A DNA stretch of 62,345 nucleotides from a virus. The translations under genes and the position numbers were made by a program. Below the pieces are notes generated by a model, which saw only the letters and a list, made by a program, of their open reading frames with translations, made no database searches and was not told the origin of the DNA. Positions 5,853 through 27,810 of the stretch are shown here, in pieces (the stretch's first letter is position 1; every line of letters starts with the position of its first letter). The DNA lies in the IMG/VR virus record IMGVR_UViG_3300042509_002518, positions 1-62,345 of that record; one strand, written 5' to 3'.

Positions 5853-7285
5853 TGCTGAACCCGGACTTTTTTCCAACGCCTGAGGTGGTGGCCGCTACCA
5901 TGCTCGATCCAATCGATCTCCGCGGCCGCACCGTCCTGGAGCCCAGCGCCGGCAGCGGCAACCTGGTGCAGGCCTGCCTCGAGCGCGGCGCTGCCGAGGT
6001 GCTGTGGTGTGAGACCGAGCCCCAGCTGCAGGCGATCCTCACCAGCATCACGGGCGCCATGCCGACCCATCGCTATGGCGACTTCCTGCAGGTTCACCCG
6101 GCCGATGTGTCGCACATCGATGCCATCGTGATGAACCCACCGTTCAGCGCTGATGAGGCCCACATCCTGCACGCCTGGGCCATCGCGCCACCCGGCTGCG
6201 AGATCGTGGCCCTGTGCAACTGGAACTCGATCAGCGGCCACTACCGGGGCCTCCAGCTCCAGCTGGCGAAGCTGATCGATGCCTACGGCAGCAAGGAGGC
6301 CCTCGGCGAGTGCTTCGCCGATGCTGAGCGCCCCACCCGGGTGAGCGTGGGCCTGGTGCGGCTGACGAAGCCCGGCACCAAGCCCGGCGGTGACGAGTTC
6401 GACGGGTTCTTCCTCGGCCCCGACGACATCGAAGCCCAGGGCGAGGGGATCATCCCCTACCGCCGCAGCCGCGACATCGTGCAGCGCTACATCGAGGCCT
6501 GCAAGATCTTCGATGAGCAGGTGGCGGCTGGCGTGCGGCTGCGCAACGTGCTGGACGGGTTCTTCGGCAAGGACCTCGGCCTGCAGGTGACGATCGAGGG
6601 CCAGGCGGTCACCCGCAACCGCTTCCGCAAGGACTTGCAGAAGCAGGCCTGGCAGCACGTCTGCAACGAGTTCCTGCCGGAGCGGATGGCCACCAGCCAG
6701 CTGGCGAAGGACATCAACAGGTTCGTGGAGGATCAGACGAAGATCCCCTTCACCGAGCGGAACATCTACCGGATGCTCCAGATCGTGGCCGGCACGCAGG
6801 AGCAGCGGGTGGATCGTGCTGTCGAGGAAGCGATCGACAGCCTGACCATGTTCACCAAGGAGAACCGCTACGGCGTGGAGGGCTGGGCGACGAACAGCGG
6901 CTACATGCTGAACCAGCGCTTCATCCGCCCGAGCATGGCCGAGCTGGCCTACAGCGACCCGCGAAAGGTGCGGCTGCAGACCTATGGCGGGCAGTGGGAT
7001 GAGATTCAGGACCTGATCAAAGCCCTGTGTTTCATCACCGGCCGCCCCATCGAGGAAGTGCGCACACCGGAGCGGATCAACGAGAACCAGTATTGGCCAG
7101 GCGACTGGTACGACTGGGGCTTCTTCCTGTTCCGCCCTTACAAGAAGGGCACGGTGCACTTCGAGTTCAAGGACCGCGAGGTGTGGGCAGCGCTGAACGC
7201 CCGCTACGCCCGCATCAAGGGCCAGGTACTGCCGGAGAACCTGCAGCGCAAGCCCCGCGCACGGCGGCAGCCGGCTGCTGCCTGA
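5852..7285 (+). CDS. Class I SAM-dependent DNA methyltransferase, DUF4942-like C-terminus
   Basis: This 477-aa protein has SAM-binding motif I LEPSAGSGNLVQA (about 29-41) and a catalytic NPPF motif (95-98), the signature of N6-adenine (or N4-cytosine) methyltransferases acting on DNA. The long C-terminal half (NVLDGFFGKDL, then W..IF.L around DWYDWGFFLFRPYKKGT) resembles the DUF4942 architecture seen in phage and plasmid methyltransferases. No restriction endonuclease is nearby, so it is an orphan enzyme, perhaps protecting phage DNA or marking it for regulation. Start ATG 5852 overlaps the previous stop. Confidence 0.85.
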   Translation: MLNPDFFPTPEVVAATMLDPIDLRGRTVLEPSAGSGNLVQACLERGAAEVLWCETEPQLQAILTSITGAMPTHRYGDFLQVHPADVSHIDAIVMNPPFSADEAHILHAWAIAPPGCEIVALCNWNSISGHYRGLQLQLAKLIDAYGSKEALGECFADAERPTRVSVGLVRLTKPGTKPGGDEFDGFFLGPDDIEAQGEGIIPYRRSRDIVQRYIEACKIFDEQVAAGVRLRNVLDGFFGKDLGLQVTIEGQAVTRNRFRKDLQKQAWQHVCNEFLPERMATSQLAKDINRFVEDQTKIPFTERNIYRMLQIVAGTQEQRVDRAVEEAIDSLTMFTKENRYGVEGWATNSGYMLNQRFIRPSMAELAYSDPRKVRLQTYGGQWDEIQDLIKALCFITGRPIEEVRTPERINENQYWPGDWYDWGFFLFRPYKKGTVHFEFKDREVWAALNARYARIKGQVLPENLQRKPRARRQPAAA

Positions 7286-9089: not shown

Positions 9090-9450
9090 AGACCAGGCCC
9101 CGGAGCCCCCCTGGCGGCCGAGCTGGAAGCAGCTGGCCCAGATCCCTGATTCCCTGCTGAAGGCCCGCATCCTGCGCGCCCTCGATGTGAAGGTGCCACC
9201 CGAGGGCCGGGCGACGGTGTTCCACGGCGAGGGCTTCCGGCTTGAGGTGGCGCCAGAGAGCGGCTTCTACCTGATGTCCGATGGCATCAGCAGCACCTGG
9301 CTGCCGGATGGCTCCACCGTGCTGCGCACCCTGAAGTGGCCTGCCGGCACACAAACGGGTGATGCAGTCCGGGCCTGGCTGGAGAGCTGGGGCTGGGTGC
9401 CGAAGCAGAAGGCGGGTGCCCCCCAGCCGCCGCCGCCGATGGTGATCTGA
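9064..9450 (+). CDS. Small protein preceding terminase, unknown function
   Basis: This 128-aa product starts at ATG 9064 or 9076, inside the end of the previous gene, and its stop overlaps the terminase start. It contains WRPSWKQLAQIPDSLLKARI and a strand-rich central part ending in WLESWGWVPKQ. It is probably translationally coupled to the large terminase. No family is recognised. Confidence 0.5.
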   Translation: MTTPMTTPEDQAPEPPWRPSWKQLAQIPDSLLKARILRALDVKVPPEGRATVFHGEGFRLEVAPESGFYLMSDGISSTWLPDGSTVLRTLKWPAGTQTGDAVRAWLESWGWVPKQKAGAPQPPPPMVI

Positions 9451-11132
9451 TGCCGCCACGCCGCAGCAGCAACCCAGCCGACCTGTTGTTGGCCCATGCC
9501 GCAGAGGCGTACTTCGCGCACGATCCGCTGTCGCTTGCCCTCCACCAGGCCCAGGCCAGTGCTGCGCAATCCAACGCCCCGGCGCCCTATGCCGACACGC
9601 TGGAGGCCTACATCAGGCTGGTGTGCCCCAGCTTCCCGTGGTCGCCCCACACCCACCGGCTGGTGGCCCTGGGCCAGCGGGTGGCCGATGGCGAGATCCG
9701 CCGGCTGATGGTGGAGCTGCCCCCGCGGCACTTCAAGAGCACCATCTTCTCGATCTTCCTGCCCGGCTACTTCCTCCGCCGCTACCCCAACCGCAGCGTG
9801 GGCATCGGCTGTCACACCGCCACCCTGGCGGAGGGCTTCAGCAAGGATGCCCGCGACTACTACAGCGCCTCCGGTGGTGCGCTCTCCCCCGCCTCGAGCG
9901 GGGTGAAGAAGTGGGGCACCGGTGTGGGGATCGGGGAGCTGTGGACCGCAGGCGTCGGCGGCGGTACCGGCAACCCGGGCGACCTGATCATCGTGGACGA
10001 CCCGATCAAGTCCAGGGAGATGGCGGAATCCGCCGCCTGGCGCCGGCAGGTGCATTCCTGGTGGGATTCGGTGCTCTCCACCCGGGAAGAACCCGGCAAC
10101 GCCGTGGTGATCGTCCACACCAGATGGCACAGCCTGGACCTGATCGGCTACCTGCTGCAGAAGAACGAAGAGCTGGAGAAGGAAGGTCTGCAGGCGCAAT
10201 GTGAGCCCTGGCATGTGGTCAGCCTGCCGATCGAGGCGCTGCCGGCGAACGCCATCAAGCCCCTGCCCCGCACCGTCACCCGTGAACGCGACCAGCGGCA
10301 GCCGGGCCAGGCGCTCGATCCATCGCGCTTCGATGAGACCTTCATCGCGCGGAAGAAGGCGAACACCCCCGCCCGCGACTGGGAAGCGCTCTACCAGCAG
10401 AACCCCACCGAGCAGGCCGGCACGGTCTTCACCCGCAGCACCTTCCGGTTCTACGTGCTCCAGGGCGAAGCGCAGGAGCACGGTGATCTGCTGCTGCCGG
10501 CCCACGGCATCCGCCGCATCGCATCGGTGGACGCCACCTTCAAGGACACCGCCGGGGCTGACATGGTGGCGATCGGCCTGTGGCTGCAGACCCAGCAGGG
10601 CATGTTCAGGCTGGATCAGGTGAACAAGCGGATGGGCTTCACCGAAACGCTCGACACGATCCGAGCCCTGCAACCCGTCTGGCAGTTCGGAGAGCTGCTG
10701 ATCGAAGACAAGGCCAACGGCCCGGCCATCATCGACACCTTGAAACGCGAGGCCAGGGGTTACAGCGTCATCGCCGTCAACCCGATGGGTGGTAAGGAAT
10801 CACGTGCAAATGCCGCTGCAGTGCAGTTCCGCCAGGGTCGGGTGATGATTCATCGGCATGCACCGTGGGCAGCGGAGTACATGAACCAGCTGCTGGCATT
10901 CCCCGCTGGCACGTTCGATGACCTGGTGGATGAAACCTCCCAGGTGTTGAACTACTGCGCCGGCACTGGCCCGATGACGGTCACCACAGCAACCTATGGC
11001 TACGGCAGTGCAGCGCTGCCGGCCGTGACGGAACCCGACCGCCACCTGGGGCTGAGCGTGGAAGAGGTGATGCGACTGAAGGCCATGCCAGTCCCTGGTG
11101 CATTCAATCCTGATGAGGAGCAGTACCTGTGA
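9450..11132 (+). CDS. terL: Terminase large subunit
   Basis: This 560-aa packaging motor has an ATPase domain with a variant Walker A, PPRHFKST (91-98), Walker B LIIVDDP (179-185) and a C-terminal RNase H-like nuclease with Asp361 in ASVDATFKD and ED at 419-420 in LLIEDKANG. It cuts and pumps DNA into the prohead through the portal. Length and motif order are complete. It overlaps the sigma-like gene as GTGA and lies two genes from the portal. The family (Terminase_6/nuclease type) does not by itself decide cos or pac packaging. Confidence 0.93.
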   Translation: MPPRRSSNPADLLLAHAAEAYFAHDPLSLALHQAQASAAQSNAPAPYADTLEAYIRLVCPSFPWSPHTHRLVALGQRVADGEIRRLMVELPPRHFKSTIFSIFLPGYFLRRYPNRSVGIGCHTATLAEGFSKDARDYYSASGGALSPASSGVKKWGTGVGIGELWTAGVGGGTGNPGDLIIVDDPIKSREMAESAAWRRQVHSWWDSVLSTREEPGNAVVIVHTRWHSLDLIGYLLQKNEELEKEGLQAQCEPWHVVSLPIEALPANAIKPLPRTVTRERDQRQPGQALDPSRFDETFIARKKANTPARDWEALYQQNPTEQAGTVFTRSTFRFYVLQGEAQEHGDLLLPAHGIRRIASVDATFKDTAGADMVAIGLWLQTQQGMFRLDQVNKRMGFTETLDTIRALQPVWQFGELLIEDKANGPAIIDTLKREARGYSVIAVNPMGGKESRANAAAVQFRQGRVMIHRHAPWAAEYMNQLLAFPAGTFDDLVDETSQVLNYCAGTGPMTVTTATYGYGSAALPAVTEPDRHLGLSVEEVMRLKAMPVPGAFNPDEEQYL

Positions 11133-12076
11133 GCACGCCAACGCCAGGAGCGAGCAGCCGCCCGCGGCGCAGCAGAAAGGCACCGGCTGAGGGCCAGCCG
11201 CCTGCGACCGCTCCAGCGATCGATCGGTTCCCGCCGCCCACGGCATGGAGCGAGCAGCTGGCGGCCGACAACCTGCGGCTGGCCGCCAACCGTGCGCGCC
11301 GCCTCCACCGCCTCACGCTGATGCCCTACGACGACCTGCTGATGGTCGCCTGGGTGGGGCTGCTCAAGGCCTGCCGGTACTACGACCCGAAGCGGATCAA
11401 CCCAACCTCCGGGGCGCCCTACCGCCTCTCCACCTGTGCCGTGCCGTTCATTGATGGCGCGATGTGGCAGTGGCTGCGGAAGGTGGGCCACCCGCTCAAG
11501 ATCCCGAACAAGTGGCGGGAGCTGGGCCCGAAGGTGCGGCGGATGGCGGCGATGGGCCGCACGGCGGATCAGATCGAGCAGGAGGTGGGGCTGCCGGCGG
11601 ATGAGGTGCGCGAGCTGATCGCTGCCACCGGACCCACCGCGGCGCTGCGCCAGGACATCGTGAGCGAGTGCAGCGGCAGCGGCGGCATGGCGCTGGATGA
11701 CGATGAGGTGGGCCAGGATCCCGCCAACGGCACCGAGCTGCTCGAGCTGGTGGAGATCGCCCGGCGGGCATGGAGTGAGCTGAACAGCGCGGATCGGCTG
11801 CAGCTGGAGGCCAGCTGGCTGGCGAAGCGCCGGCGGCAGGTGGCCACGCTGCCCCTCGGCCAGTTCCGCGCCAGGGTGCGGCGTGTGGTGGGGCACAGCA
11901 GGGCCCCTGGCGGCACAGAACGCACCGAGCTGGGCTTCGAGGTGGAGACCACCGGCGGCGACACCCCAGGTCGGCCGAGGGGTGCAGTGGAGCAGGAGCA
12001 GGGTGAAGCGGTGGATGCTGCTGCACTCACCGCGAAGGCAGACCAGCTGGGCCTGTTCGATTCGCTCGCCACCTGA
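11129..12076 (+). CDS. Phage-encoded sigma-70-like factor
   Basis: This 315-aa protein (GTG start inside the terminase stop) matches sigma region 2: NLRLAANRARRLHRL (48-62), YDDLLMVAWVGLLKACRYYDP (67-87), a YRLSTCAVPFIDGAMWQWLR segment (98-117) equal to the FSTYA..WIR..I stretch, and LKIPNK (123-128). Region 3 follows (about 130-165, with an HTH at 146-164). Region 4 is not clear. It could direct host RNA polymerase to late promoters; motif A copies begin right after it (12097). A non-transcriptional homologue cannot be excluded. Confidence 0.75.
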   Translation: MSTPTPGASSRPRRSRKAPAEGQPPATAPAIDRFPPPTAWSEQLAADNLRLAANRARRLHRLTLMPYDDLLMVAWVGLLKACRYYDPKRINPTSGAPYRLSTCAVPFIDGAMWQWLRKVGHPLKIPNKWRELGPKVRRMAAMGRTADQIEQEVGLPADEVRELIAATGPTAALRQDIVSECSGSGGMALDDDEVGQDPANGTELLELVEIARRAWSELNSADRLQLEASWLAKRRRQVATLPLGQFRARVRRVVGHSRAPGGTERTELGFEVETTGGDTPGRPRGAVEQEQGEAVDAAALTAKADQLGLFDSLAT

Positions 12077-12132: not shown

Positions 12133-13656
12133 GTGTCAACGAGGGCGCAGGAAACGAGCGGGATTGTCGATCACCCCCAGGGTGACCCGAAGCTGCCGAG
12201 CTACGTGCATCCTGCGCTGAAGGATGTGGCCAGTGATCTGGCGATGGTGGGTGACTGCTGGAACCTGCTGCGCGGTGTCCGGGGAAAGTACCTGCCGAAG
12301 GAGGTGGCTGAACCGGCGAAGGCCTATGAGGGCCGGCTGGCGCGGGCGAAGTTCCCGGCCTTCCTGCGCGATGGCATCCAGGCCTTCAGCGGTGCATTGA
12401 GCCGGTTCGAGGTGTCTGCAGCACCGCCGACCTTTGAGGCAGCACTGGGCAACATCGATGGCGAGGGGCAGGCGCTGAAGTCGCTGCTGATGCGCGCTGA
12501 TCAGGCGGCGATGCGTGATGGTGCCTGCCTGCTGATGGTGGACATGCCGCCGGGCCGTGCTGAAAGCCGTGCGGATGAGCTGGCCCTGGGCCGCCGGCCG
12601 CTGCTGCGCTTTGCGGAGCGGATGATGGTGCGCAACTGGAAGGTGAAGCGCGAAAACGGGATCGAGATCCCGGTGGCCGTCACCGTGCTCGAGTGGCACG
12701 AAGTGGAAGATGGCGACTTCGGGATCACGATGGAGCCCCGCTACCGCGTGATGCGCGGCGGCCAGTGGTGGCTGATGCGGATCAAGGGTGCAAGCGGCAA
12801 CGGCAAGGGCAGCCTGGCCTGGCAGTTCGAGGAATTGGATTTCGGCGTGTTCGAGGATGCCGCCGGCAACCCGCTGCGGTATCCGCCGGTCTGCTGGTAC
12901 AGCGTGAGCCGTGAGGGCTTCGGCCGTGGCGACCTGCCGTTCTATGCCCTGGCAGAAGGCAGCCTCGACTGGTTCCGGGAGTACAGCGACTACAAGGAGC
13001 TGCTGCGCAAGACCGCGATGCCGGTGGCGGTGCGCAAGGGTGCGCCGATGGGCCAGAACGGTGCGCCGGCGCCGCTGGCGATCGGCCCGAACAGCGTGGT
13101 GGACCTGCCGAAGGATGGCAGCTTCGAGTGGGCGGAGGTGAGCGGCAGCAGCCTGGAGCGGCATGAGGCCAACCTGGCGCAGATCGAAGCGCTGATCGAT
13201 CGCCAGACCCTCAGCTTCCTCTTCGGCGGCAGTGGCGACCGCACCGCAACCCATGCCGAACTGGAGAGCGCGCAGCTGCAGGCGACGCTGACCGCGATCG
13301 GGGAGCAGAAGGCCTCGATGATGCAGACCGTGATGGAGCTCTGGGTGGGCTTCACCGGCGAGCGACTGGAGCCTGGCGCCGGCCTGGTGATGGCCAAGGG
13401 TGTGGTGGATCGCCCGGTGGATCCTGAAACCCTGCGCCTTGCGAAGGACCTCTATGACGCCGGCCTGCTGCGGCGGGCCAGCGTGACCGCCCTGGAGGGC
13501 CGTGCGGGCCTGCTGCCGCAGGGTGTGACCCCAGAGGCTGAGGCGCTGGCGCTGGAGATCGAGGATGAGCTACTGAACGGCGAGACGCCCGGGCCGGCGG
13601 ATCCGGCGGTGACGGGCGAGAACGACGGGGAAAACCAGGATCAGCAGACGGGGTGA
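12133..13656 (+). CDS. Portal protein (DUF4055-like)
   Basis: This 507-aa protein has the profile of the DUF4055 portal-like family: an N-terminal HPALKDVASDL.M then YLPKE segment, a mixed central region, LDWFREYSDYKELLRKTAMP near 275-295 and a long helical stretch around 345-395. As portal it would form the dodecameric vertex through which terminase packages DNA. Start GTG 12133 follows motif A. Its order after terminase and before a MuF-type protein is classical. Annotation as portal depends on family and place. Confidence 0.75.
   Translation: MSTRAQETSGIVDHPQGDPKLPSYVHPALKDVASDLAMVGDCWNLLRGVRGKYLPKEVAEPAKAYEGRLARAKFPAFLRDGIQAFSGALSRFEVSAAPPTFEAALGNIDGEGQALKSLLMRADQAAMRDGACLLMVDMPPGRAESRADELALGRRPLLRFAERMMVRNWKVKRENGIEIPVAVTVLEWHEVEDGDFGITMEPRYRVMRGGQWWLMRIKGASGNGKGSLAWQFEELDFGVFEDAAGNPLRYPPVCWYSVSREGFGRGDLPFYALAEGSLDWFREYSDYKELLRKTAMPVAVRKGAPMGQNGAPAPLAIGPNSVVDLPKDGSFEWAEVSGSSLERHEANLAQIEALIDRQTLSFLFGGSGDRTATHAELESAQLQATLTAIGEQKASMMQTVMELWVGFTGERLEPGAGLVMAKGVVDRPVDPETLRLAKDLYDAGLLRRASVTALEGRAGLLPQGVTPEAEALALEIEDELLNGETPGPADPAVTGENDGENQDQQTG
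13627..13640 (+). promoter_or_regulatory. Motif A site for 13660
   Basis: GGGGAAAACCAGGA lies within the 3' end of the portal gene, 33 nt before the TTG start at 13660. Confidence 0.45.
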
Positions 13657-13659
13657 TCC

Positions 13660-14382
13660 TTGGCGGGCAAAGGAGGTGGGCGGCGCAGCTATGTGCGGGA
13701 TGCCAGCGGCCGGTTTTCATCCAGCCCTGGCGGTGGTGGCGGGAAGGTCACAGGCGGCAGCCTGAAGGCCAGGACATCAGCGCGACGCAGCAGGGCCAAG
13801 CTGGCCAAACAGGATGCAGGCGATACCAGCCTGAGCGGCACTGCAAGCCGGCGTGCGCAGAAGGCTGCGGTCACCAGAACCGCCAAGGCCTCCAGGGCGG
13901 CGCAGGCCGCCAACCGCGGCAAATTGGCTGGTGGTCGCCCGGCAGGCACGATGAGCGCCAAGCCACGGCCGGCGGTGGCCAGGACCACCGTGATGCCCAG
14001 GTCTGAGCAGCGCGCACCAGGCCAGGGCCCGATGGCGCAGGCCCTGCGCAGCACGTTGCGCAGCCTGGCGCAGCTTGATGCCCAGCGGATCCGGGAGATC
14101 GAGAGCATCACCGGCATGCCGATCCGCCGTACCGCCAGCCCGTCAAAGCCGGCGACCAACAAGCTGCCCGGTAGTGCCGGAGGTGCAGCAGCGGGAGGCA
14201 GCGGCAGGGTGTCGGATGCCCTGCGGGCCAACCTGCGGCAGTTGGCGCAATCGGATGCGCGGATGGTGCGCGAAATGGCTGACCTGGCCAAACCGCCGCC
14301 GCGGTCGCAGCTGCGGGGCACCGGCGGTGGCAGCCAGCGGCAGCTGGGTGGTGGCCGGAAGCGGCGTGGCAAGAAGGCCTGA
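13660..14382 (+). CDS. Basic low-complexity protein, RD-GRF-tag family member 1
   Basis: This 240-aa, Arg/Lys/Ala/Gly-rich protein starts at TTG 13660. Its N-terminus shows YVRDASGRFSSSPGGGGG then VTGGSL.AR and RRSRAKLA, a tag shared with the proteins at 15454-16206, 16612-17121 and 18148-18990. The rest is a basic, probably disordered region with amphipathic helices (LRSTLRSLAQLD). No function is known to me; DNA-condensing internal virion protein is a reasonable guess given charge and the position between portal and MuF. Confidence 0.6.
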   Translation: MAGKGGGRRSYVRDASGRFSSSPGGGGGKVTGGSLKARTSARRSRAKLAKQDAGDTSLSGTASRRAQKAAVTRTAKASRAAQAANRGKLAGGRPAGTMSAKPRPAVARTTVMPRSEQRAPGQGPMAQALRSTLRSLAQLDAQRIREIESITGMPIRRTASPSKPATNKLPGSAGGAAAGGSGRVSDALRANLRQLAQSDARMVREMADLAKPPPRSQLRGTGGGSQRQLGGGRKRRGKKA

Positions 14383-15452
14383 TGGCGATCACGATCGGTG
14401 ATCAGCAGCTCCAGCTGGCGGACGACTTCGCCCAGGCCCTCGATGGCCTGGCCGATCGCGCCAGCACCAACACCCGCCGGGCGCTGGTGATCGCCCTGCG
14501 CCGCACGCTGCGTGATCTCCGCCGCTGGTATGGCCAGGCCGTGGATCCAGAGCTGCCGGCAGAACGCAGCGCCGACGGCCAGCTGCGGCGGCCCGGGTCC
14601 TACTCGATCGCAGAATCGTCCCGGAAGCTGCAGGACCTGCAGCGCATCGCCCAGGCCTACTTCAGCGCCAACGAGCTCAAGGCCCTGGAGCAGCGCTACG
14701 CCACCGACCTGGAGCAGGCCACTGCGCTGGGTGATGACCTGGCGCGGCAGCTGCTGCAGACCACAGATCCCGAGGTGGTGGCGCGGTCGCAGTTCGTGGG
14801 CCCCAACCGTGCCGCGATCCGTGCGGCAGCAGCCACCACCTCGGCCTACATCAGGGCGGAGGTGGAATCGTTCCGCGACAACCTCACCCGCATCGTCACC
14901 CAGGGCGTGGCGCGAGGGCAGGGGTACCGCAAGATCGAGCGTGATGTGCGCATCGCCCTGCTGGGTGCCCGTGACCCGAACGGCATCACCCGCAGCCTGG
15001 GGCTGGCGAACCGTGCAGAGCTGATCGCACGCTCTGAGCTGTCCAACGCCTATGTGGGGGCGCAGAAGGCCACCGCTGAGCGGAACGGGATGAAGTACGC
15101 CAGGTGGATCGCGACGAAGGATGAGCGCACCTGCCCGGTGTGCGCCAGCCGCCACGGGAACATCTACCTGTTGGCGGAGATGGTGGGCACGCAACACCCG
15201 CGGTGCCGCTGCAGCCTGGCGCCAGTGGCGACGGAAGCGGTGGAGGAAGCGGACCCGAAGCGGCGGGCCACCCTGCTGCGTGAGGCGTACTGGGAGCGGA
15301 GCCGGGAGGCGATCACACGGGAGTTCGCCGCCGGCAAGGGCTGGCCGTTCGATCGTGCCTCGAAGGTGCTGGGCGATGCGTTGCGGAAACCGAGCCCGAG
15401 CGAGAAGCGGCAGTTCCCTGGGATCGAGACTGCCGCGCTGCCGGTGCTGTGA
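14382..15452 (+). CDS. MuF/SPP1 gp7-like head morphogenesis protein
   Basis: This 356-aa protein ends with the Mu F-type domain: ARSELSNAYVGAQKATAERN, then ATKDERTCPVCASRHG and HPRCRCSLAPV (about residues 210-285), with the expected Cys and HPRCRC signature. Such proteins bind the portal and help head assembly. It overlaps the preceding gene by one base and converges with the reverse-strand gene 15454. The C-terminal 65 aa (WERSREAITREFAAGKGWPF) extend past the core domain. Confidence 0.88.
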   Translation: MAITIGDQQLQLADDFAQALDGLADRASTNTRRALVIALRRTLRDLRRWYGQAVDPELPAERSADGQLRRPGSYSIAESSRKLQDLQRIAQAYFSANELKALEQRYATDLEQATALGDDLARQLLQTTDPEVVARSQFVGPNRAAIRAAAATTSAYIRAEVESFRDNLTRIVTQGVARGQGYRKIERDVRIALLGARDPNGITRSLGLANRAELIARSELSNAYVGAQKATAERNGMKYARWIATKDERTCPVCASRHGNIYLLAEMVGTQHPRCRCSLAPVATEAVEEADPKRRATLLREAYWERSREAITREFAAGKGWPFDRASKVLGDALRKPSPSEKRQFPGIETAALPVL

Positions 15453-15453
15453 C

Positions 15454-16206
15454 CTACCGCTTGCGGCGTGGCTTGGCGAGGGGCTTGTTCGTGGTGCGGA
15501 TGGCGTTGGCGGGCTTCTGCGGCTGAGCCTTGGCCTTGGGCTTCGGCGCTGGCTTGGGCTTCGATGCTGGCTTCGCTGGCGGCTTGGCCTTGGCGGTGGC
15601 CTGGGCCCTGGCCGGCGCCGGCTGTTGCGGGGCCTGCGGCCGCCGGCCGGTGATTGCCTTCAGGGCCGCCCCGAGCCGTGCGGCAAGCCCTCCACCGCCC
15701 TGCCCCTGGGCCGTGCGCACCACCTTCCGGCCCGGGGTGGCCGTCGGGGCCGGCTTGCTGCTGCGCTGCTGCGCTGCCTTCAGGGCCGCCTCCATCGCAG
15801 CGCTCCGCGGCGGCGGTGGCGGGGCCTTCCTCCCACTGGCGGCCATCTCAGCCTGCTGCCGCTTGCCCTGCAGGTAGCTGAACGCCCGGCCCTGCACCGC
15901 GCTGCGCTGCACCGTGCCCCCGATTGCGCCGGCCTTGCTGGTGGGCGCCAGCTGGCTGCGGACAGCCTGCTGCACGGCCTTGAGCCGATTGGTGGCGCGA
16001 GTGATGGCAGCACGCTGCGCACGCTGCTGCTGCTGCGGGGTGCCGGCCGGTGCGGCGGCGGCCCTGGCCTTGCTGCGCTTCAGCTTGCTGCGTGCCGCGA
16101 GGCTGCCCCCGGTCACCTTCGGTCGGGCACCGCCACCACCGCCGGGGGAGCTGGAGAAGCGACCACCGTTGTCCCTGGTGTAGCTGCTGCGGCGGCGGCC
16201 GGCCAT
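15454..16206 (-). CDS. Basic low-complexity protein, RD-GRF-tag family member 2 (reverse strand)
   Basis: This 250-aa protein is encoded against the structural genes. From ATG 16206 it begins MAGRRRSSYTRDNGGRFSSS, then PGGGGG and VTGGSLAARSKLKRSKAR, matching the other tag-family members. The C-terminus is a Lys/Pro/Ala array ending KPLAKPRRKR, like a histone H1 tail. The frame stays open far upstream, but the tag and motif A (16230-16243 on the minus strand) fix this start. An inverted family copy suggests that a module was duplicated and flipped. Confidence 0.6.
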   Translation of the reverse strand: MAGRRRSSYTRDNGGRFSSSPGGGGGARPKVTGGSLAARSKLKRSKARAAAAPAGTPQQQQRAQRAAITRATNRLKAVQQAVRSQLAPTSKAGAIGGTVQRSAVQGRAFSYLQGKRQQAEMAASGRKAPPPPPRSAAMEAALKAAQQRSSKPAPTATPGRKVVRTAQGQGGGGLAARLGAALKAITGRRPQAPQQPAPARAQATAKAKPPAKPASKPKPAPKPKAKAQPQKPANAIRTTNKPLAKPRRKR

Positions 16207-16229
16207 CTGTCTCGCGTGGTGGATCCCTG

Positions 16230-16243
16230 CCCTCTGTTTTCCC
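16230..16243 (-). promoter_or_regulatory. Motif A site for the gene at 16206
   Basis: The minus strand reads GGGAAAACAGAGGG beginning 37 nt before ATG 16206. Its orientation follows the reversed gene. Confidence 0.5.
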
Positions 16244-16317
16244 ATCCACTGCTGGATGGTTGCCGGCCTGCATCCATGCCTGGACAATGATCGGGACCGC
16301 TTCGGCCGATCCCCGCG

Positions 16318-16557
16318 ATGCCACCAGCCGTTGAGCAGGCCGAGGTGATCGATGAACCGACGCTGGAGCTGTTCCTGGCGTTGCAGGTGGGCTGCCTGCT
16401 GCGCGATCAGGTGGGGGTGCGGCAGTGCCTGCGGCTGGTGGCCACCACGATGGAGGATGCGGCCGGCATCGAGCTGACGCGGCTGCTGAGCAACAGCCTG
16501 GCGCCGGCTGATCGCTTCTGGCTGGGTGGGCTGCTGGGGCCCAGGGCCGCCAGCTGA
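16318..16557 (+). CDS. Small helical protein, unknown function
   Basis: This 79-aa product is acidic and helical (EPTLELFLALQVGCLLRDQVG), with an end LLSNSLAPADRFWLGGLLG. It lies alone between two divergent tag-family genes. No family is recognised and no clear ribosome-binding site is seen; coding potential rests on composition and length. Confidence 0.4.
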   Translation: MPPAVEQAEVIDEPTLELFLALQVGCLLRDQVGVRQCLRLVATTMEDAAGIELTRLLSNSLAPADRFWLGGLLGPRAAS

Positions 16558-16573
16558 CGCGGGCTGCTGCTCC

Positions 16574-16587
16574 GGGGAAAACCAGGG
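16574..16587 (+). promoter_or_regulatory. Motif A site for 16612
   Basis: GGGGAAAACCAGGG begins 38 nt before ATG 16612 and is nearly identical to the sites at 12097 and 13627. Confidence 0.5.
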
Positions 16588-16611
16588 GCACGACGTGGTG
16601 ATGCCCAACTG

Positions 16612-17121
16612 ATGGCCCGGACCTACAAGCGAGATTCGAGCGGCCGATTCTCCGGCGGTGGCGGTGGCGGCAAAGGCGGCGGCAGGGCCGGGAAGGCCAG
16701 CGGGAAGGCGAAGACCACCACGGCCCGGGGCCGGGCGCGGACAGCTGAGGCGACGGCCCGGCAGGCAGTGAAGGCCGGCGGCGGTGCCAAGGCCGCCCGC
16801 AGCCTGTTCACCGCTCAGCGGGCCCGCGACTTCTACAAGGCCACCGGTAGCGGCACCAAGCGCAGCGCCGCCAAGGGGGCCACCAAGGGGAGCGCCACAG
16901 TGGCCGCCAAGACACCGGCCAAGGGTGCCGCCAAGGCAAAGCCCGCAAGGATGAGCAAGGCAGCGCCAAACACCGCGAAGGCCAAGTACAAGGCCGCCGC
17001 CAGCAAGGTGCGCGAGCTCAAGATGTACCGCGGTGGCAAAACGGACGCGACCGTGAAGAAGGCCCAGGCAACCGTGAAGCGGATGGAGCGCAGCCGCCGG
17101 TCCTCCCGCGCTCGCGTCTGA
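16612..17121 (+). CDS. Basic low-complexity protein, RD-GRF-tag family member 3
   Basis: This 169-aa protein begins MARTYKRDSSGRFSGGGGGG, a shortened form of the family tag without the VTGGSL part, and continues as an Ala/Lys/Thr-rich basic region (AKGATKGSATVAAKTPAK) like histone H1 or bacterial HU-tail proteins. A repeated KKAQATVKRMERS end is helical. Motif A lies 38 nt upstream. Nucleic-acid binding is likely from charge; the actual role is unknown. Confidence 0.6.
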   Translation: MARTYKRDSSGRFSGGGGGGKGGGRAGKASGKAKTTTARGRARTAEATARQAVKAGGGAKAARSLFTAQRARDFYKATGSGTKRSAAKGATKGSATVAAKTPAKGAAKAKPARMSKAAPNTAKAKYKAAASKVRELKMYRGGKTDATVKKAQATVKRMERSRRSSRARV

Positions 17122-17150
17122 ACCACGCTCCCACCTGACCACCACCCACG

Positions 17151-17678
17151 ATGGCAGTCCCCACCCTTGACCCGCTCTGGCGGCCGAATGCCACCGGGCC
17201 ATCCCCTGTGGCCACGCAGGATCGCGAGCTGATCCGCACCTACCTCGGCTGGCCGGCCACTGATGCAGCGCTGCAGGGCCTGACGATCGCGATGAACCAG
17301 GTCGCTGGCGTCTCGCCCGCGGCGGTGGCGCAGGTGCAGGCATGGATCAATGAGATCGTGAACCTGGAGGCTGACTACGCCGACCAGGTGGCCGATGGCA
17401 CCGCCCACCTCGGCAACGCGGAGGAATACGAGGGCCCAGTGCCTGGCACCAGCCCGAGCAGGGATGAGCAGCTGCAGGCAGCCAGCAAGCTGACGTGGGA
17501 CACCAGCCTGCTGAAGGCGCGGTATCGGTTCGGGGGAGGTGCTGCAGCGTCCGCGCACGGGCAGCGGCTGGAGCGAATCGGGGTGCTGCGCAGCCGGATC
17601 ATCAGCAGCCTGGGGCTGGATCCAACGGCCTTCACCAGCACCGGCGGCGGTGGTGCGGCGATGCTGCTGCGCAGCTGA
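17151..17678 (+). CDS. Structural-module protein, unknown function
   Basis: This 175-aa protein is helical with RELIRTYLGWPATDAALQ and a C-terminal LERIGVLRSRIISSLGLDP. It has the size and position of a head-tail connector or head completion protein. No motif A precedes it. A strong hairpin follows the stop, suggesting the end of a transcription unit. Confidence 0.45.
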   Translation: MAVPTLDPLWRPNATGPSPVATQDRELIRTYLGWPATDAALQGLTIAMNQVAGVSPAAVAQVQAWINEIVNLEADYADQVADGTAHLGNAEEYEGPVPGTSPSRDEQLQAASKLTWDTSLLKARYRFGGGAAASAHGQRLERIGVLRSRIISSLGLDPTAFTSTGGGGAAMLLRS

Positions 17679-17705
17679 GGGACGGGGCCGGACGCCACAA
17701 AGCCG

Positions 17706-17739
17706 AAGGCCCCCAGGAGTTCCAGCTCCTGAGGGCCTT
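17706..17739 (+). terminator. Hairpin terminator candidate
   Basis: Two 14-bp arms (17706-17719 and 17726-17739) pair with one mismatch around a 6-nt loop, AAGGCCCCCAGGAG against CTCCTGAGGGCCTT. It stands 27 bp after the stop of the preceding gene. The T-tract is poor. Confidence 0.5.
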
Positions 17740-17761
17740 GTTGATGGCTGGTTCCAACCGA

Positions 17762-17791
17762 ACCGTGGCCGAAATGACCGTGGCCGAAATG
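17762..17791. repeat. Perfect 15-bp tandem duplication
   Basis: ACCGTGGCCGAAATG occurs at 17762-17776 and again at 17777-17791 with no gap. It preserves frame (five codons), but no gene is supported here. Confidence 0.7.
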
Positions 17792-17821
17792 TACACGCCC
17801 CAGGCAACGGCGTCAACAGAA

Positions 17822-17851
17822 AAGGGCCCCCGGTTGGCGCCGGGAGCCCTT
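17822..17851 (+). terminator. Second hairpin terminator candidate
   Basis: Arms AAGGGCCCCCGG (17822-17833) and CCGGGAGCCCTT (17840-17851) pair with one mismatch around a 6-nt loop, the same design as the hairpin at 17706. Confidence 0.45.
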
Positions 17852-18112
17852 CCTGCAAACCCAGACCCCCGACTGATTGGAACCGGGAAGGGATCTGGAC
17901 TCGAACCGGGCAATCGCCCGGTCTGCGCCGCGCAGGAGACGGCACCATGCAGCGAAGCCCGGACCCCCCGCAAGGGAAGCCCGGGCTCACTGAGAGACAA
18001 CATCAACCCGGAGCCTGCCAGGGCTGCCGGATCGAACCAACGGAGGACGGACCCACCGATGGGAAACCAAACGGCCGAGGCCGGTCGGTTCAATGGAATC
18101 CTATTCCCTGCA

Positions 18113-18126
18113 TCGGAAAACTGCCA
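18113..18126 (+). promoter_or_regulatory. Motif A site for 18148
   Basis: TCGGAAAACTGCCA includes the core GGAAAACTG, about 35 nt before ATG 18148. Confidence 0.45.
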
Positions 18127-18147
18127 GCAGCACGGGCAGCAGGCGGC

Positions 18148-18990
18148 ATGGCGAAGGGCGGCAAGGGCCGGCGGGGTTACACCAGGGACGCCAGCGGCAG
18201 GTTCGCCAGCGCCCCCGGCGGCAGCGGCCGGGCCCGGAAGCCGCGGGTGACCGGCGGCACCCTGGCGGCACGATCGAGCCTCCGGCGCAGCAGGGCCAAG
18301 CTCGCTGCAGCACCATCCGCAGCGCAGCGCGGGGCCGTCACCCGCGGCGCGCGGAAGCTGGCGGCCACCAGGCAGCAGGCGATCACCCGGATGGGTGCAG
18401 TGGCAGCAGCAGGGCGTCTCCGGCCTGGGGCGCGCAGGGCCACACCAGCACCGGGCAACAGCATCCGGCCCATCCCCTCCAGCCGCAGCCTCCAGGCCCC
18501 ACCGCGCAATGCCATCCGCGTCTACAAGGCCAAGACGATGATGGGCAAGATGGATCGGGATGTCAGGCGCATCGATCGCCGCATCGAGCGCGACCTGAAG
18601 CCGGCCCTGAATGAGATGCGCTCCATCACGGATCGCTCAGCCCGGCTGCGGCGGCAGATGGATCGCTTCAACGCCCGCCCCTTCCAGGATCGGCTGCGGC
18701 CTGGCATCGAGGGCGAGATCGGCCGCATGCAGATGCGCAGCATGAGCGGCCAGTCGATCCGCCGCGGCGAGGATGTGGTGCGGTCTCGCGCAGCCCGCGC
18801 GCGAAAGCTGGCGGAAGGCGGCAGCACGGTGGGCCAGCGTGCGCTGCAGCTCTACGGCACCCAGCTGGCCTTCACCGGCAAGACCAGGACGCTGGGGCGG
18901 AAGAAGCCGGCGAACACGATCAACCCAGGCCCGAGCAACAGCAACCCACCACGGAAGCCGAAGCCGAAGCGGCGGCGCAAGGGCAGCTGA
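18148..18990 (+). CDS. Basic low-complexity protein, RD-GRF-tag family member 4
   Basis: This 280-aa protein starts MAKGGKGRRGYTRDASGRFA, followed by VTGGTLAARSSLRRSRAKLA, the fullest match to member 1. A central basic region is followed by charged helices (MDRDVRRIDRRIERDLKPAL) and an end rich in Lys/Pro (KPKPKRRRKGS) with KKPANTINP, which resembles the KPANAIRTT of member 2. Thus both ends are shared among members while the middle varies. The frame is open upstream, but the tag plus motif A set the start. Confidence 0.6.
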   Translation: MAKGGKGRRGYTRDASGRFASAPGGSGRARKPRVTGGTLAARSSLRRSRAKLAAAPSAAQRGAVTRGARKLAATRQQAITRMGAVAAAGRLRPGARRATPAPGNSIRPIPSSRSLQAPPRNAIRVYKAKTMMGKMDRDVRRIDRRIERDLKPALNEMRSITDRSARLRRQMDRFNARPFQDRLRPGIEGEIGRMQMRSMSGQSIRRGEDVVRSRAARARKLAEGGSTVGQRALQLYGTQLAFTGKTRTLGRKKPANTINPGPSNSNPPRKPKPKRRRKGS

Positions 18991-19037: not shown

Positions 19038-19310
19038 ATGATCGAGTACCGAGGCGAGCGATTCGAGGGCTACAACAAGCCCAAGCGCACACCAGGCCAT
19101 GCCACCAAGAGCCATGCGGTGCTGGCCAAGGAGGGCGCCACGGTGAAGCTGATCCGCTTCGGGCAGCAGGGCGTGAGCGGCAGCCCGCCGCGAGAGGGTG
19201 AGAGCAAGGCCGCCAAGGCACGGCGCGAAGCGTTCAAGGCGCGGCATGCCGACAACATCGCCAAGGGCAAGCTCAGCGCGGCGTACTGGGCAGACCGTGC
19301 GAAGTGGTGA
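19038..19310 (+). CDS. Conserved small cyanophage-type virion-module protein (DUF6321-like)
   Basis: This 90-aa protein reads MIEYRGERFEGYNKPKRTPG, then KEGATVKLIRFGQQGVSGSP and KARHADNIAKGKLSAAYWAD, a pattern I associate with a small protein conserved in many cyanophages and other tailed phages and possibly filed as DUF6321. It is very basic. The function is unknown, but family members usually sit among structural or packaging genes, as here. Confidence 0.7.
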   Translation: MIEYRGERFEGYNKPKRTPGHATKSHAVLAKEGATVKLIRFGQQGVSGSPPREGESKAAKARREAFKARHADNIAKGKLSAAYWADRAKW

Positions 19311-23658: not shown

Positions 23659-26600
23659 GTGGCGGATCTCGACATCAGCGCAAGGTTGTTGCTGGAGAAC
23701 GCAAAGGATCTGCAGCGACAGCTGGAAGAGGCGGGCCAGGCCAGCGGGTCGGTGTTCGGCCAGGCGATCAACAACCAGGCGCAGAAGGGCCTCGATGATC
23801 TGGTCGCCCGGGCGGAGCGTGCGGCGAAACAGGTCGGCCTGGCCTTCAACCGCACCACGCTCCAGTTCGAGAGCCCGAAGGGCGAGATCATCCCTGAGGC
23901 CACCCTCAAGAAGCTGGGGCGGCTGAATGCGGAGCTGGGGGCCTCGCAGCGCGAGCTGAAGGCATTCGCGGCGGAGGCGGAGCGCACGGGCCAGCAGGCG
24001 GCCGATGGGTTCGACCTGATGGATGCCGCCGTGACCGGCGTGGCGTTCAGCATCGCCAACACGCTCACCACATCGGTGCTGCAGGCTGGCGGGCAGGTTG
24101 CTGGTGTGCTGAAGGGCCTGGTGGGTGGGTTTGCGGACCTGGATGCCGAGATCCGCAAGGCGGCGGCGGCCGGCGGTGAACAGGGCGGCTACGAGAAGTT
24201 GTCCAGGGCGGTGGACAGGGTCGGCGTCGAGGCGGCCGGCACGCAGATCGAGGTGGCCCAGCTGCTCACGGAGCTGGTGCGCGGCGGCATGACGGTGGAC
24301 CAGGCCACCCAGAGCCTGGGGGCGATCGTGCGCGGTGCGGAGGCCACCGGCACCGCCTACGCCCAGATGGGTGATGTGGTGGGTGCATCGCTGAAGGGCT
24401 TTGGCCTCGAAGCGAAGGATGCGCAACGGGTGGTGGATGCCCTCACCCAGGGCGCCAATTCCTCGGCCACCAGCGTGAGTGGGCTTGGGATGGCGTTCAA
24501 GTACGCCGCCCCGGTGGCGAAGATCTTGGGGGTGAGCGTGGAAGAGCTGGCGGTGGCCGCCGGCCTGCTCACCAACACCGGCATCGATGCCTCTGAAGCT
24601 GGTGTGACGCTGCGGAACGGCCTCTCGAAGCTGGCCAGTGCAGCACCGCAGACCGGTGGCGGCATGAAGCAGCTGACCGGCCAGGCGGCTGCCGCCGCGA
24701 AGGTGATGAAGACCCTTGGGCTCGACATCTACGAGGCTGACGGCACCCTCAAGCCGATGGAGCAGACGCTGCTCACGCTGAAGGGGGCGTTCGACAAGCT
24801 GGGCCCATCGGCCAGGGTCAGGCTGGCGGCAGACCTGTTCGGCGGAGAGGACGACGGCACTAAGTGGCTGTCGCTGCTGGGCCAGAGCGAGACCGAGATC
24901 AAGAAGATGTCGGCGGCCATGGCCAACACCAAGGGCGCAGCGGACACGGCGCGGGAGGCGATGTCTGGCCTGAAGCAGAAGATCGAGGAGCTGAAGGGCG
25001 GGCTTGACACCCTTGGCAAGACCTTTGGCGCCGCCATCGCGCCGGCAATGATCGTGGTGGTTGAGGCCGCCAAGGCGGTGGTGGGCGCGATTTCAGACCT
25101 GCCCACCCCGGTGAAGCAGGTTGGTGCAACGCTGATCCTGCTGGTGGGCGGCCTGGTGGCGGCACGGGTGAGCCTGGCGCTGTTTCAGGCGGCGCTGGCG
25201 ACGACGCAGGTGCAATCGGCAATCCAGGGCCTGCTGTCGCTCGGCGCGGTGCTGCGCGGCAAGCTGGCGGCCGACATGGCGTTTGCCAGTGCCGCCTGGA
25301 CCCGGATGATCGCGGCGATGGTGGCCGCCAACACCACGCAGATCTCTTTCGGTGCAGTGGCAGCCGCCATCAGGGACAACGTGGTGAAGGCTGCGCTGAG
25401 CGGGGCGCTGGCGATGGTGAAGCTGGGTGAGGCGATCGCCAGCGGTGCGCTGCTGACCAGTCTGAAGGCGTTTGCCGCGGGGGCATGGGCCGCGGTGGCG
25501 CCGTTGCTGCCGTTCGTTGCTGCTGCCGCTGCAGTCGCTGGCGCGATCGTGGTTTGGAACAACGTGCTGAGCGGCGCCAATGACATCAGCAAGGACTTCG
25601 CAGAGACGCAGAAGACGGTTGCCGATGAAGTCGGCAAGCTGAATGAAACACTGGGCGAGAATGCAGTCCAGGTAAAAGAAAGCCGTGGCGCAATCGATGA
25701 ACTCTTCCGTTCCGCCGGTGAAGGCTACTCCCTGATCCGCCTGGGCCAGGAGGTTGAACGACTGCAGGGGACGTTCGGGATTGCACAGGAAGGTGCGATG
25801 GCGTTCTACCGCGAGCTGCAGCGGTCTGGTGTCATCAGCGATGAGCAGAAGACCAAGGCGAAGCAACTGGCGGATCAGCTCACGCGCCTTGCAGAAGCCG
25901 GTCGAAATCAAGCGGCACAGCTGCGGGCTTCCGCTGGTGAAGAAGAGCTGAAGGGCAACACTGGTCTGGCCGAGAACATGCGTTCGCGCGCCAATGCGCT
26001 GGATGCCGAAGCGCGGGCGACCGCCAACCTCGCGGCCGGGATCCGGGCGAAGGCTGGCGTGACGGAAGCCGACACCAAGGCCACCCAGGCCAACAACGCC
26101 GCGCAGGAAACCGCCGAAGACATCGAGCGCCGCCGGCTGGCCCTGGTGAAGCTCCGCCGCACCCAGGGCGAAGCGGAGATCAGCCAGCGCCAGGCCCTCG
26201 GGTCGCTGACCCGTGAAGAGGCCGAGGAAGAACGGCGCCAGCTGGCGATCACCGAAGCACGGCTGGAGCGTGAAGCGCAGATCCAGCGCCTGAAGGGCCT
26301 GACCGGTGATCAGGCCGTGGCCGCCCAGCAGCAGATTGCAGAGCTGGATCGCGAGATTGCAGACCTGCAGGTGCAGGGCGCCGAGGCGGCGGTGCAGCGC
26401 TGGCAGCGGGTGTATGACCTCGCCGTGCAGCGCCTGGAGCTGGAGAGCACTGCGATCGGCCTGCAGAAGCAGGGCGCCGAGCAGGTGGCGGCCCGGCTGC
26501 GGGGGCAGCAGCAGATCCTCGAAGCACAGCTGGGCCTGCAGCAGGCGCAGGCGGCCCTGGTGCAGAGCCGGTTTGCAGTGCAGAAGGCACGCAACGATCG

Positions 26601-27810
26601 AGCGGTCACAAGCGCCGAGGAACAGTTGCAGCTGGCGATTGAACGTGGCGCATCGGAAAGTGAAATTGAATTGCGCACGCGGAGAGTTGTTGAGCTGCGA
26701 CGCCGGGCAGTTCAGATTGAGCAAAATGCAATAGAGGCTGGCATTATGGCCACCGCTCAGCGCTTCCAGATTGAGCAGAGGCTGCTGGCGGCAAAGCAGG
26801 CGCAGCAGGCGATTGAAGCTCGATCAGCACAGCTTGCAGCCGCGCAGAATACGATCCAGCAAGAACAGCGGCTGCTTGAGATTCGCAAGCAGCTGGCCGA
26901 TCCAAACATCACGGCCGGTCAGCGGGCAATCCTGCAAGAGCAGCTTGGCCTTCAGTACCAGGCTGTTGGCTTGGCGCAGCAGCAGCAGCGAAACGAAATC
27001 GGCCGGCTTGATGTGATGAAGCAGGTGTTTGGCTTGGAGCGAGAAACGCTTTCGGCTCAGCAACAAACCACCGCAAACACTGCCCGCGCAGAGGCCATCG
27101 CCAAAGGATACGAAGACAGGCTGGCCGGTTCGTTGAACCAGCTTGATCGGGCAGCAAGCAGCAGCAGCGGCATGAGCGATGCGCTCAAGCAGGTTTTTCG
27201 CGATGCGACATCTGTTGAGTCGTCAGTGAAGGGGCTCTCCAATGTGCTGGACCAGGCCAAGGTCACCACCGACAGCACCGCCAATGCAGCCCAGTCCCTC
27301 GCCAGTGGCTACGCCAACGCCAACACCAACGCCCAGGCGCTGCTGGGCACGCTGACCAAGATCGCAGCCACACCACAGGCCCGCTGGGCTGGTGGCCCGG
27401 TGGAGCCCGGCACCAGCTACCGCGTGAACGAGCTGGGCCAGGAATCGCTGCTCAGTGCCTCAGGGCGGCTGTCGCTGATCGATCGCGCCCGCAATGCCAT
27501 GTGGCGGCCCCCCAGCCGTGGTGTGGTGCTGCCGGCGGGGATGACGGAGCAGCTGGCGATGGCGGGGGCCTTCGGGGGCAGCGGCGGCCGGGCAGGCCGT
27601 AGCGGCTCCCGCGGTGGTGGCGCCGTGCTCCAGCAGGTGGCCCGCAGTGGTGATGGCATGCGCGGCCTCACCGCTGCCGTTGCGCGGCAGGGTGCACTGC
27701 TCGGAAAACTGGGGGCAGCAATCGACCGCCTCGCAGCACGGGACTGGAGGGTCACGATCCACACGCCAGGCAATGCCGGCCTGATCCGCAGCCTCCAGGG
27801 CTTCAGCTGA
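23659..27810 (+). CDS. Tail tape measure protein (TP901-type)
   Basis: This 1383-aa protein (GTG start) has an N-terminal coiled coil, then the TP901 tape-measure core (about 150-440, with LTELVRGGMTVDQATQSLG and AAPVAKILGVSVEELAVAAG and LFGGEDDGTKWL), hydrophobic segments around 475-500 and 610-640, and a long Gln/Ala/Arg-rich coiled coil (about 800-1180). It sets tail length; at about 0.15 nm per residue the tail would be near 200 nm. The central coiled-coil coding part is less GC-rich than the rest. Confidence 0.92.
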   Translation: MADLDISARLLLENAKDLQRQLEEAGQASGSVFGQAINNQAQKGLDDLVARAERAAKQVGLAFNRTTLQFESPKGEIIPEATLKKLGRLNAELGASQRELKAFAAEAERTGQQAADGFDLMDAAVTGVAFSIANTLTTSVLQAGGQVAGVLKGLVGGFADLDAEIRKAAAAGGEQGGYEKLSRAVDRVGVEAAGTQIEVAQLLTELVRGGMTVDQATQSLGAIVRGAEATGTAYAQMGDVVGASLKGFGLEAKDAQRVVDALTQGANSSATSVSGLGMAFKYAAPVAKILGVSVEELAVAAGLLTNTGIDASEAGVTLRNGLSKLASAAPQTGGGMKQLTGQAAAAAKVMKTLGLDIYEADGTLKPMEQTLLTLKGAFDKLGPSARVRLAADLFGGEDDGTKWLSLLGQSETEIKKMSAAMANTKGAADTAREAMSGLKQKIEELKGGLDTLGKTFGAAIAPAMIVVVEAAKAVVGAISDLPTPVKQVGATLILLVGGLVAARVSLALFQAALATTQVQSAIQGLLSLGAVLRGKLAADMAFASAAWTRMIAAMVAANTTQISFGAVAAAIRDNVVKAALSGALAMVKLGEAIASGALLTSLKAFAAGAWAAVAPLLPFVAAAAAVAGAIVVWNNVLSGANDISKDFAETQKTVADEVGKLNETLGENAVQVKESRGAIDELFRSAGEGYSLIRLGQEVERLQGTFGIAQEGAMAFYRELQRSGVISDEQKTKAKQLADQLTRLAEAGRNQAAQLRASAGEEELKGNTGLAENMRSRANALDAEARATANLAAGIRAKAGVTEADTKATQANNAAQETAEDIERRRLALVKLRRTQGEAEISQRQALGSLTREEAEEERRQLAITEARLEREAQIQRLKGLTGDQAVAAQQQIAELDREIADLQVQGAEAAVQRWQRVYDLAVQRLELESTAIGLQKQGAEQVAARLRGQQQILEAQLGLQQAQAALVQSRFAVQKARNDRAVTSAEEQLQLAIERGASESEIELRTRRVVELRRRAVQIEQNAIEAGIMATAQRFQIEQRLLAAKQAQQAIEARSAQLAAAQNTIQQEQRLLEIRKQLADPNITAGQRAILQEQLGLQYQAVGLAQQQQRNEIGRLDVMKQVFGLERETLSAQQQTTANTARAEAIAKGYEDRLAGSLNQLDRAASSSSGMSDALKQVFRDATSVESSVKGLSNVLDQAKVTTDSTANAAQSLASGYANANTNAQALLGTLTKIAATPQARWAGGPVEPGTSYRVNELGQESLLSASGRLSLIDRARNAMWRPPSRGVVLPAGMTEQLAMAGAFGGSGGRAGRSGSRGGGAVLQQVARSGDGMRGLTAAVARQGALLGKLGAAIDRLAARDWRVTIHTPGNAGLIRSLQGFS

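Follow-up and report, generated by a model that had tools for sequence, protein, structure and literature searches.

The window analysed here, a viral contig from IMG/VR that is 62,345 bases long, encodes four strongly basic proteins that carry the same short peptide, Y.RD..GRF, near their N termini and whose genes lie between the portal gene and the tail genes. We consider it on balance probable that this peptide is a tag by which basic cargo is loaded into the virion, to be ejected together with the DNA. The proposal is based on the tag itself, the genomic slots of the tagged genes, their basic composition, the swapping of their back ends and the enzyme-like motifs of their relatives. The family, a tag plus exchangeable cargo beside phage head genes, is unnamed; among the open-access papers searched (subscription papers lay outside the scope), none contained the spelled forms of the motif that we used.

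Four tagged genes in the window

An earlier note, made from the letters of this DNA, had described four genes with a shared N-terminal motif. Each of these open reading frames (ORFs) does carry the tag, with Y-x-R-D-x-x-G-R-F as the core that is invariant across the four. Tagged genes recur in slots that we call A (between the genes for the portal and for a MuF-type minor head protein), B (between MuF and p175, a conserved 175-aa protein) and C (after p175). With other loci given L numbers, and with pN/pS as the ratio of nonsynonymous to synonymous differences, the features are as follows.

13660..14382, plus strand: tagged protein 1, 240 aa, TTG start, slot A between portal and MuF; pN/pS 0.07 against L007
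13690..13716, plus strand: tag YVRDASGRF of protein 1
14032..14115, plus strand: 28-residue helical repeat, copy 1, in the C-terminal module of protein 1
14209..14292, plus strand: 28-residue helical repeat, copy 2, protein 1
15454..16206, minus strand: tagged protein 2, 250 aa, slot B, with a Pro/Ala/Lys-rich tail
16156..16182, minus strand: tag YTRDNGGRF of protein 2
16612..17121, plus strand: tagged protein 3, 169 aa, slot B; pN/pS 0.02-0.08
16624..16650, plus strand: tag YKRDSSGRF of protein 3
16963..17100, plus strand: C-terminal module of protein 3, common to tagged proteins of L008, L082 and L083
18148..18990, plus strand: tagged protein 4, 280 aa, slot C; C-terminal module mostly helical, as judged from sequence
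18178..18204, plus strand: tag YTRDASGRF of protein 4
18508..18933, plus strand: C-terminal module of protein 4, also in L112

The tag is not an artefact of composition in random frames, an explanation ruled out by two expectations: Y.RD..GRF occurs four times in the six frames of the window compared with 0.0 times in order-2 Markov copies, and residue shuffles of the four proteins gave about 5e-5 matches per round. The codons of the tag vary synonymously across relatives, with arginine, for example, written as CGC, CGG, AGG, CGT, CGA or AGA. Because this variation is free, the tag is conserved as a peptide and not as DNA, and together with pN/pS values of 0.02-0.23 against near relatives for all four genes it indicates that the tagged genes are translated and under purifying selection.

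The proteins are as basic as the earlier note had described them (lysine plus arginine 21-27%, net charge +39 to +56). Other regularities that it listed hold in part: the stretch VTGG[ST]L.AR follows the tag in three of the four proteins and is absent from protein 3, and the shared ending KPAN.I is found in proteins 2 and 4 and not in the other two. Four proteins from other loci also have the shorter form PAN.I, and three of these proteins are near-identical relatives. Protein 2 lacks stretches totalling 129 aa that are found in the near-identical relatives L004/L006.

Searches of Pfam and PHROG at E<=0.1 returned no family for any of the four proteins, and thus neither a histone or nucleoid-protein family (Pfam) nor recognisable homology to the T4 IP/Alt families (Pfam and PHROG). 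A known family was likewise absent from the comparison of the A2 profile with PDB and from the PADLOC scans. The modules of the four are short and helical or of low complexity, and these proteins may be minimal or structural members of the tagged set.

Constant front and exchangeable back ends

The MuF protein, used as a query, gave 59 viral loci, nearly all with one to four tagged ORFs next to MuF, and 120 tagged ORFs were taken from 57 loci, the window included. The four-member expansion described earlier is the local end of a family found in most related contigs. Beyond slots A, B and C, a fourth slot lies between the tail tube and tape measure genes (L086, L104, L121 and L176). The viral collection was also scanned with a DNA pattern of start codon plus tag, with no MuF reference. 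Among the matches listed, 99 of 113 newly fetched loci held a tagged ORF, and 80 of these 99 also held homologues of module genes (portal, MuF, terminase, connector, tail tube, tape measure and others), compared with 0 of the 14 loci in which the pattern fell outside a tagged ORF (Fisher test, 3e-9); part of the 113 loci came from contigs already in the MuF search, so that the sample is not fully independent.

The search for the tag in other phages, suggested by the earlier note, thus yielded at least 206 distinct tagged proteins in IMG/VR contigs, a count from partly redundant samples that is not to be read as a frequency. Between 4 and 14 residues precede the tyrosine, so that the tag starts at residue 5-15. 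The 206 listed proteins span 61-1258 aa (median 334 aa), and 98.5% have a net charge of at least +10. Exceptions stand in other surroundings, namely near-neutral or acidic RVYKRD..GRFGSGSGG copies in L151 and the 1258-aa protein in L073. Tagged proteins such as those of L020 and L041 contain, about 25-45 residues beyond the tag, another repeat that resembles it, RDN[SA]G[RK]I, and then GATARGG; RDN[SA]G[RK]I is present in 61 and GATARGG in 89 of the 206 listed proteins.

Behind the constant N terminus, the C-terminal domains of relatives are polymorphic. Among 36 pairs of slot-A proteins whose flanking MuF proteins are at least 93% identical, which share loci and are not independent events, 17 combine an identity of 0.90-0.98 over the first 60 residues with 0.05-0.25 over the last 150. 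The C termini of tagged proteins fall into about 39 clusters, and a given module can recur in another slot or behind the tag of a distant contig. Whole modules also come and go within one lineage: in alignment A4, only L020 and L027 have an ADP-ribosyltransferase (ART)-like stretch. A hidden Markov model of both copies of the 28-residue repeat of protein 1 matched 12 tagged proteins of other loci besides the near-identical L007 orthologue, including tagged proteins on the tape-measure side.

Several of these modules are enzyme-like, J-domain or ParB-like. The metallopeptidase motif HExxH, with a conserved downstream EFIAE, occurs in 16 of the 206 listed proteins. ART-like stretches with YHGT have PARP as the best match among family members (8.3e-5), and ART-PolyVal was matched at 0.017 in L020 and 0.066 in L024, both below the curated cut-offs. 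J-domains with HPD gave a DnaJ match of 2.6e-5. In L154, two tagged ORFs lie beside the portal gene; one is ParB-like (phrog_1033, 1.2e-7) and the other is a WHGT protein that looks ART-like by eye and has no Pfam match. A few relatives have two domains, such as L020 (ART-like plus HExxH). AlphaFold modelled a two-domain relative poorly (pLDDT 44) and its metallopeptidase domain moderately (pLDDT 64). Judged by their motifs, the HExxH, ART, J-domain and ParB-like modules appear to be of kinds known from injected phage effectors.

Genomic setting and expression

The location between portal and tail genes given by the earlier note was confirmed: the tagged genes are interleaved with the MuF gene, and the capsid gene lies elsewhere. 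The neighbouring genes and the sites of motif A, a short sequence upstream of many of these genes, are listed here.

9450-11132: terminase large subunit
11129..12076, plus strand: phage sigma factor between terminase and portal (phrog_351, 2.6e-17), conserved in 70 loci
12133..13656, plus strand: portal protein (phrog_145, 1.4e-65)
14382..15452, plus strand: MuF-type minor head protein, 356 aa, no effector domain attached (Pfam PF04233, 2.5e-16; PHROG minor head protein)
17151..17678, plus strand: p175, the conserved 175-aa protein used as a landmark, conserved in 64 loci
23659-27810: tape measure, among the tail genes that follow tagged protein 4
35195-36052: scaffold
36277-37236: major capsid protein, away from the tagged genes
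13628..13635, plus strand: motif A (GGGAAAAC) before protein 1
16236..16243, minus strand: motif A before the inverted protein 2
16575..16582, plus strand: motif A before protein 3
18115..18121, plus strand: motif A variant GGAAAAC before protein 4
12097, 13628, 16575, 19315, 20205, 32410, 35143 (plus strand) and 16236, 8305 (minus strand): motif A sites in the window, to which GGAAAAC variants are added

By its position only, p175 is a probable head-tail connector. Motif A, CGGGAAAACTnCnGCAGnA, stands about 30 nt upstream of many structural genes in the window and its relatives. The earlier claim that it precedes all four tagged genes is accurate for three, which have the exact GGGAAAAC, whereas protein 4 has the one-base variant CGGAAAACTG; the gene for protein 2 is inverted along with its own motif A. 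Across relatives, 88 distinct sequences upstream of tagged genes were compared, and 71 of them contain the motif, in most cases 29-30 nt from the start. The motif is common to tagged, portal, tail tube, tape measure and scaffold genes, which implies that the tagged proteins are co-expressed with structural proteins. Motif A fits the Bacillus sigma-F -10 box consensus. In the 70 loci with the phage sigma factor, its gene is mostly placed between terminase and portal. Neither a conserved -35 element upstream of motif A, as would be expected if it were part of a complete promoter, nor an RNA structure in its leader was found.

By portal, the closest isolates are the cyanosiphoviruses S-CBS2, S-CRES1-3 and PSS2 (34-38% identity). 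The window phage is a probable cyanophage, and the phages of this clade are siphophages with cyanobacteria as their probable hosts. A 90-aa protein at 19038-19310 is 82% identical to a protein of cyanophage KBS-S-2A; it belongs to phrog_7595, common in marine Roseobacter phages, and also matches part of a PHROG of minor head/DNA pilot proteins. Positions 57642-58925 and 5828-7285 encode a serine-recombinase-type integrase (phrog_95) and a probable DNA methyltransferase (phrog_32703), which suggests a temperate potential of the phage. In a prophage check of cyanobacterial genomes, this MuF was present in only one contig of a metagenome-assembled genome among 299 genomes of the order. Some MuF genes of other loci (L062:4239-6140 and L127:585-2666) carry intein-like inserts at a conserved Cys of the zinc motif, and a third MuF protein (L227) has an intein splicing domain by Pfam.

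The proposed loading tag and known systems

We propose that Y.RD..GRF acts as an N-terminal loading tag that would mark strongly basic proteins, each encoded by a gene of its own, to be built into the particle, most likely into the procapsid interior near the portal/MuF complex. Such a system would be a counterpart in trans of the fusions between MuF and effectors and would operate in the manner of the T4 capsid-targeting sequence. During procapsid assembly the tag would bind the portal, MuF or the scaffold, and the flexible Gly/Ser/basic linker behind it would tolerate or use the packaged DNA. At infection the tagged protein would leave with the DNA, and the exchangeable module behind the linker (zinc metallopeptidase, ADP-ribosyltransferase-like, J-domain, ParB-like or a small helical module) would act on the host early. 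We infer the virion location, the binding partner, the delivery to the host and any cleavage of the tag. A precedent for such a tag is found in T4, since the first ten residues of IPIII are enough for targeting to the head (PMC9026906). The portal/MuF complex is a plausible dock because the SPP1 MuF protein, gp7, is targeted into the procapsid by portal binding (PMC6316719).

The earlier note had offered three roles, DNA compaction, ejected internal virion proteins and assembly adaptors with the tag as docking signal. A combination of the last two, in which a docking or loading tag carries exchangeable cargo, agrees best with the data. The first has its counterpart in histone-like internal proteins that condense DNA or neutralise its charge, in which the tag would be merely a conserved start and the tails otherwise inactive. 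The composition of the window four, their lack of an enzyme domain match and the H1-like Pro/Ala/Lys tail of protein 2 are in line with this, but we regard it as unlikely: composition alone would not keep a nine-residue motif while the whole back half is replaced, conserved module-specific motifs exist, and modules of the HExxH, ART, J-domain and ParB-like kinds are found in relatives at the same loci. Plain DNA compaction leaves both the fixed tag with wholesale replacement of the C terminus and the enzyme-like C termini unexplained.

Rather improbable, in our estimate, is that the tag signals proteolytic processing or a domain boundary and not docking, with a head or host protease cutting at or near RD..GRF to free the cargo. 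T4 internal proteins do lose their targeting peptide to the prohead protease (PMC9026906), and a similar motif, HPRD..GRF, is found inside long phage proteins, after MuF in L207 and before the GNAT and zeta-toxin domains of L224 and L249. However, the non-exhaustive scan of window ORFs revealed no separate prohead protease, and both a cut at the tag and the kinship with HPRD..GRF are putative. The ideas of targeting and cleavage are compatible, as targeting plus cleavage.

It is very improbable that the tagged proteins are adaptors or chaperones of head or head-tail assembly that are not delivered into the host; the regular position of their genes among those for portal, MuF, connector and tape measure and the shared structural-gene motif A would suit such a role, but number per locus (0-4), strand, slot and C terminus vary, unlike in essential assembly parts, and the enzyme-like modules have no obvious role in assembly. 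Least probable are moron-like autonomous genes that act in the infected cell or lysogen and are never packaged, the tag being an intracellular localisation signal, since motif A, although it precedes each gene including the inverted one, belongs to structural genes and makes late expression likelier, and since the concentration between portal and tape measure is unusual for morons, their cassette-like swapping notwithstanding.

Several observations weigh against virion loading by the tag. Some tagged genes adjoin tail genes and not head genes. Among INPHARED isolates, no credible relative emerged from tblastn searches that used protein 4, consensus tags or several distant tagged proteins as queries, and virion proteomics was not found for any tag-bearing phage. 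In Pfam and PHROG no enzyme domain is recognisable in the window four, and most matches of enzyme modules in relatives fall short of the curated cut-offs. For the metallopeptidase model, Foldseek gave mostly zincins (mainly selecase, IrrE, minigluzincins, SprT and the PolyVal metallopeptidase), consistent with the assignment, none of the hits being significant. Finally, on the computed data a docking tag is indistinguishable from a protease site and from a localisation signal unrelated to the virion.

If the loading tag were confirmed, a short peptide would predict, among phage proteins without a known function, those that are carried in the virion and are the first to act on the host, and a large uncultured set of at least 206 distinct proteins would become readable and testable. 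It would explain how head-proximal genes swap effectors without touching MuF or portal, provide a candidate address tag for proteins on their way into the heads of these phages, and carry the T4 internal-protein principle over to siphophages whose hosts are probably cyanobacteria.

The motif may also have a wider use. In other phage contigs (L195-L313), HPRD..GRF has at least 125 in-frame instances, at least 103 of them in ORFs of at least 300 aa; W or F stands within six residues before it in 92 of the 125 listed, and some contigs have several copies (five in L231). In L207 it follows the MuF domain by 21 residues. A tentative and rather doubtful generalisation would make RD..GRF a general and so far undescribed virion-loading (or loading-and-release) module of tailed phages, used in trans here, on separate basic cargo proteins, and in cis elsewhere, where a putatively homologous HPRD..GRF would stand between MuF and effector domains and between effectors. 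RD..GRF would then be a phage counterpart of a secretion signal, permitting the free exchange of injected effectors.

Among known systems, the internal proteins IPI-III and Alt of T4 share with the tagged family a short constant N-terminal segment, a strongly basic composition, a fast-changing mature part, an ADP-ribosyltransferase among the cargo and more than one member per genome; T4 internal proteins also bind DNA, and in T4-related phages a peptide of this kind is found on other basic proteins (PMC9026906). The tagged proteins are, in the same way, basic and variable behind a constant N-terminal peptide. The capsid-targeting sequence of T4, however, is another peptide and is cleaved by gp21, whereas the tagged family, known from genes alone, has the Y.RD..GRF motif, a location by portal and MuF and a Gly/Ser/basic linker. 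The Dar proteins of phage P1 likewise comprise several internal head proteins that are co-ejected with DNA, and have a positively charged DNA-facing surface; a shared constant tag with swapped ends is not reported for them (PMC12810830), and no family match linked the window proteins to them.

MuF toxins (Jamet 2017, PMC5576092) resemble the tagged family in their head-module location by the portal, in polymorphic C termini that include ADP-ribosyltransferases, and in their proposed delivery with DNA. There, toxin and MuF form one polypeptide, whereas here MuF is bare and the cargo separate, with up to four genes per locus: Pfam and PHROG found no MuF domain in any tagged protein of the window or its relatives, and the MuF of tag loci, a gene of its own, has a median of 362 aa from stop to stop among the matches listed. 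PSS2, related in portal and MuF, has no tag anywhere in 107.5 kb, and its gp030 (L064:11516-16015) is a 1500-aa MuF protein with Zeta_toxin on the same chain (9.8e-22). Further stretches of gp030 look ART-like by eye. In the PSS2 virion proteome, published in 2009, 96.5 peptides were assigned to the gp030 ORF under the label 'major capsid protein' (PMC2784084); the capsid protein is likely ORF092, not gp030. Cargo in cis without tags in PSS2, as against cargo in trans with tags, is a suggestive contrast in favour of the loading tag, and no stronger than that because PSS2 is the one cis example.

Polyvalent proteins, as far as the sections consulted of their description go (Iyer 2017, PMC5512222), share the ART-PolyVal, metallopeptidase and ParB-like repertoire and the virion gene context. 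They combine 2-15 domains in a long chain, whereas tagged proteins mostly consist of the tag, a basic linker and one module, and those sections describe no N-terminal tag. Several conflict-type domains on a long chain are not a feature of the tagged family, and the window four have none. Because the single-chain features that define MuF toxins and polyvalent proteins fail here, the tagged family is kept apart from both and is best filed as a variant of phage-delivered polymorphic effectors.

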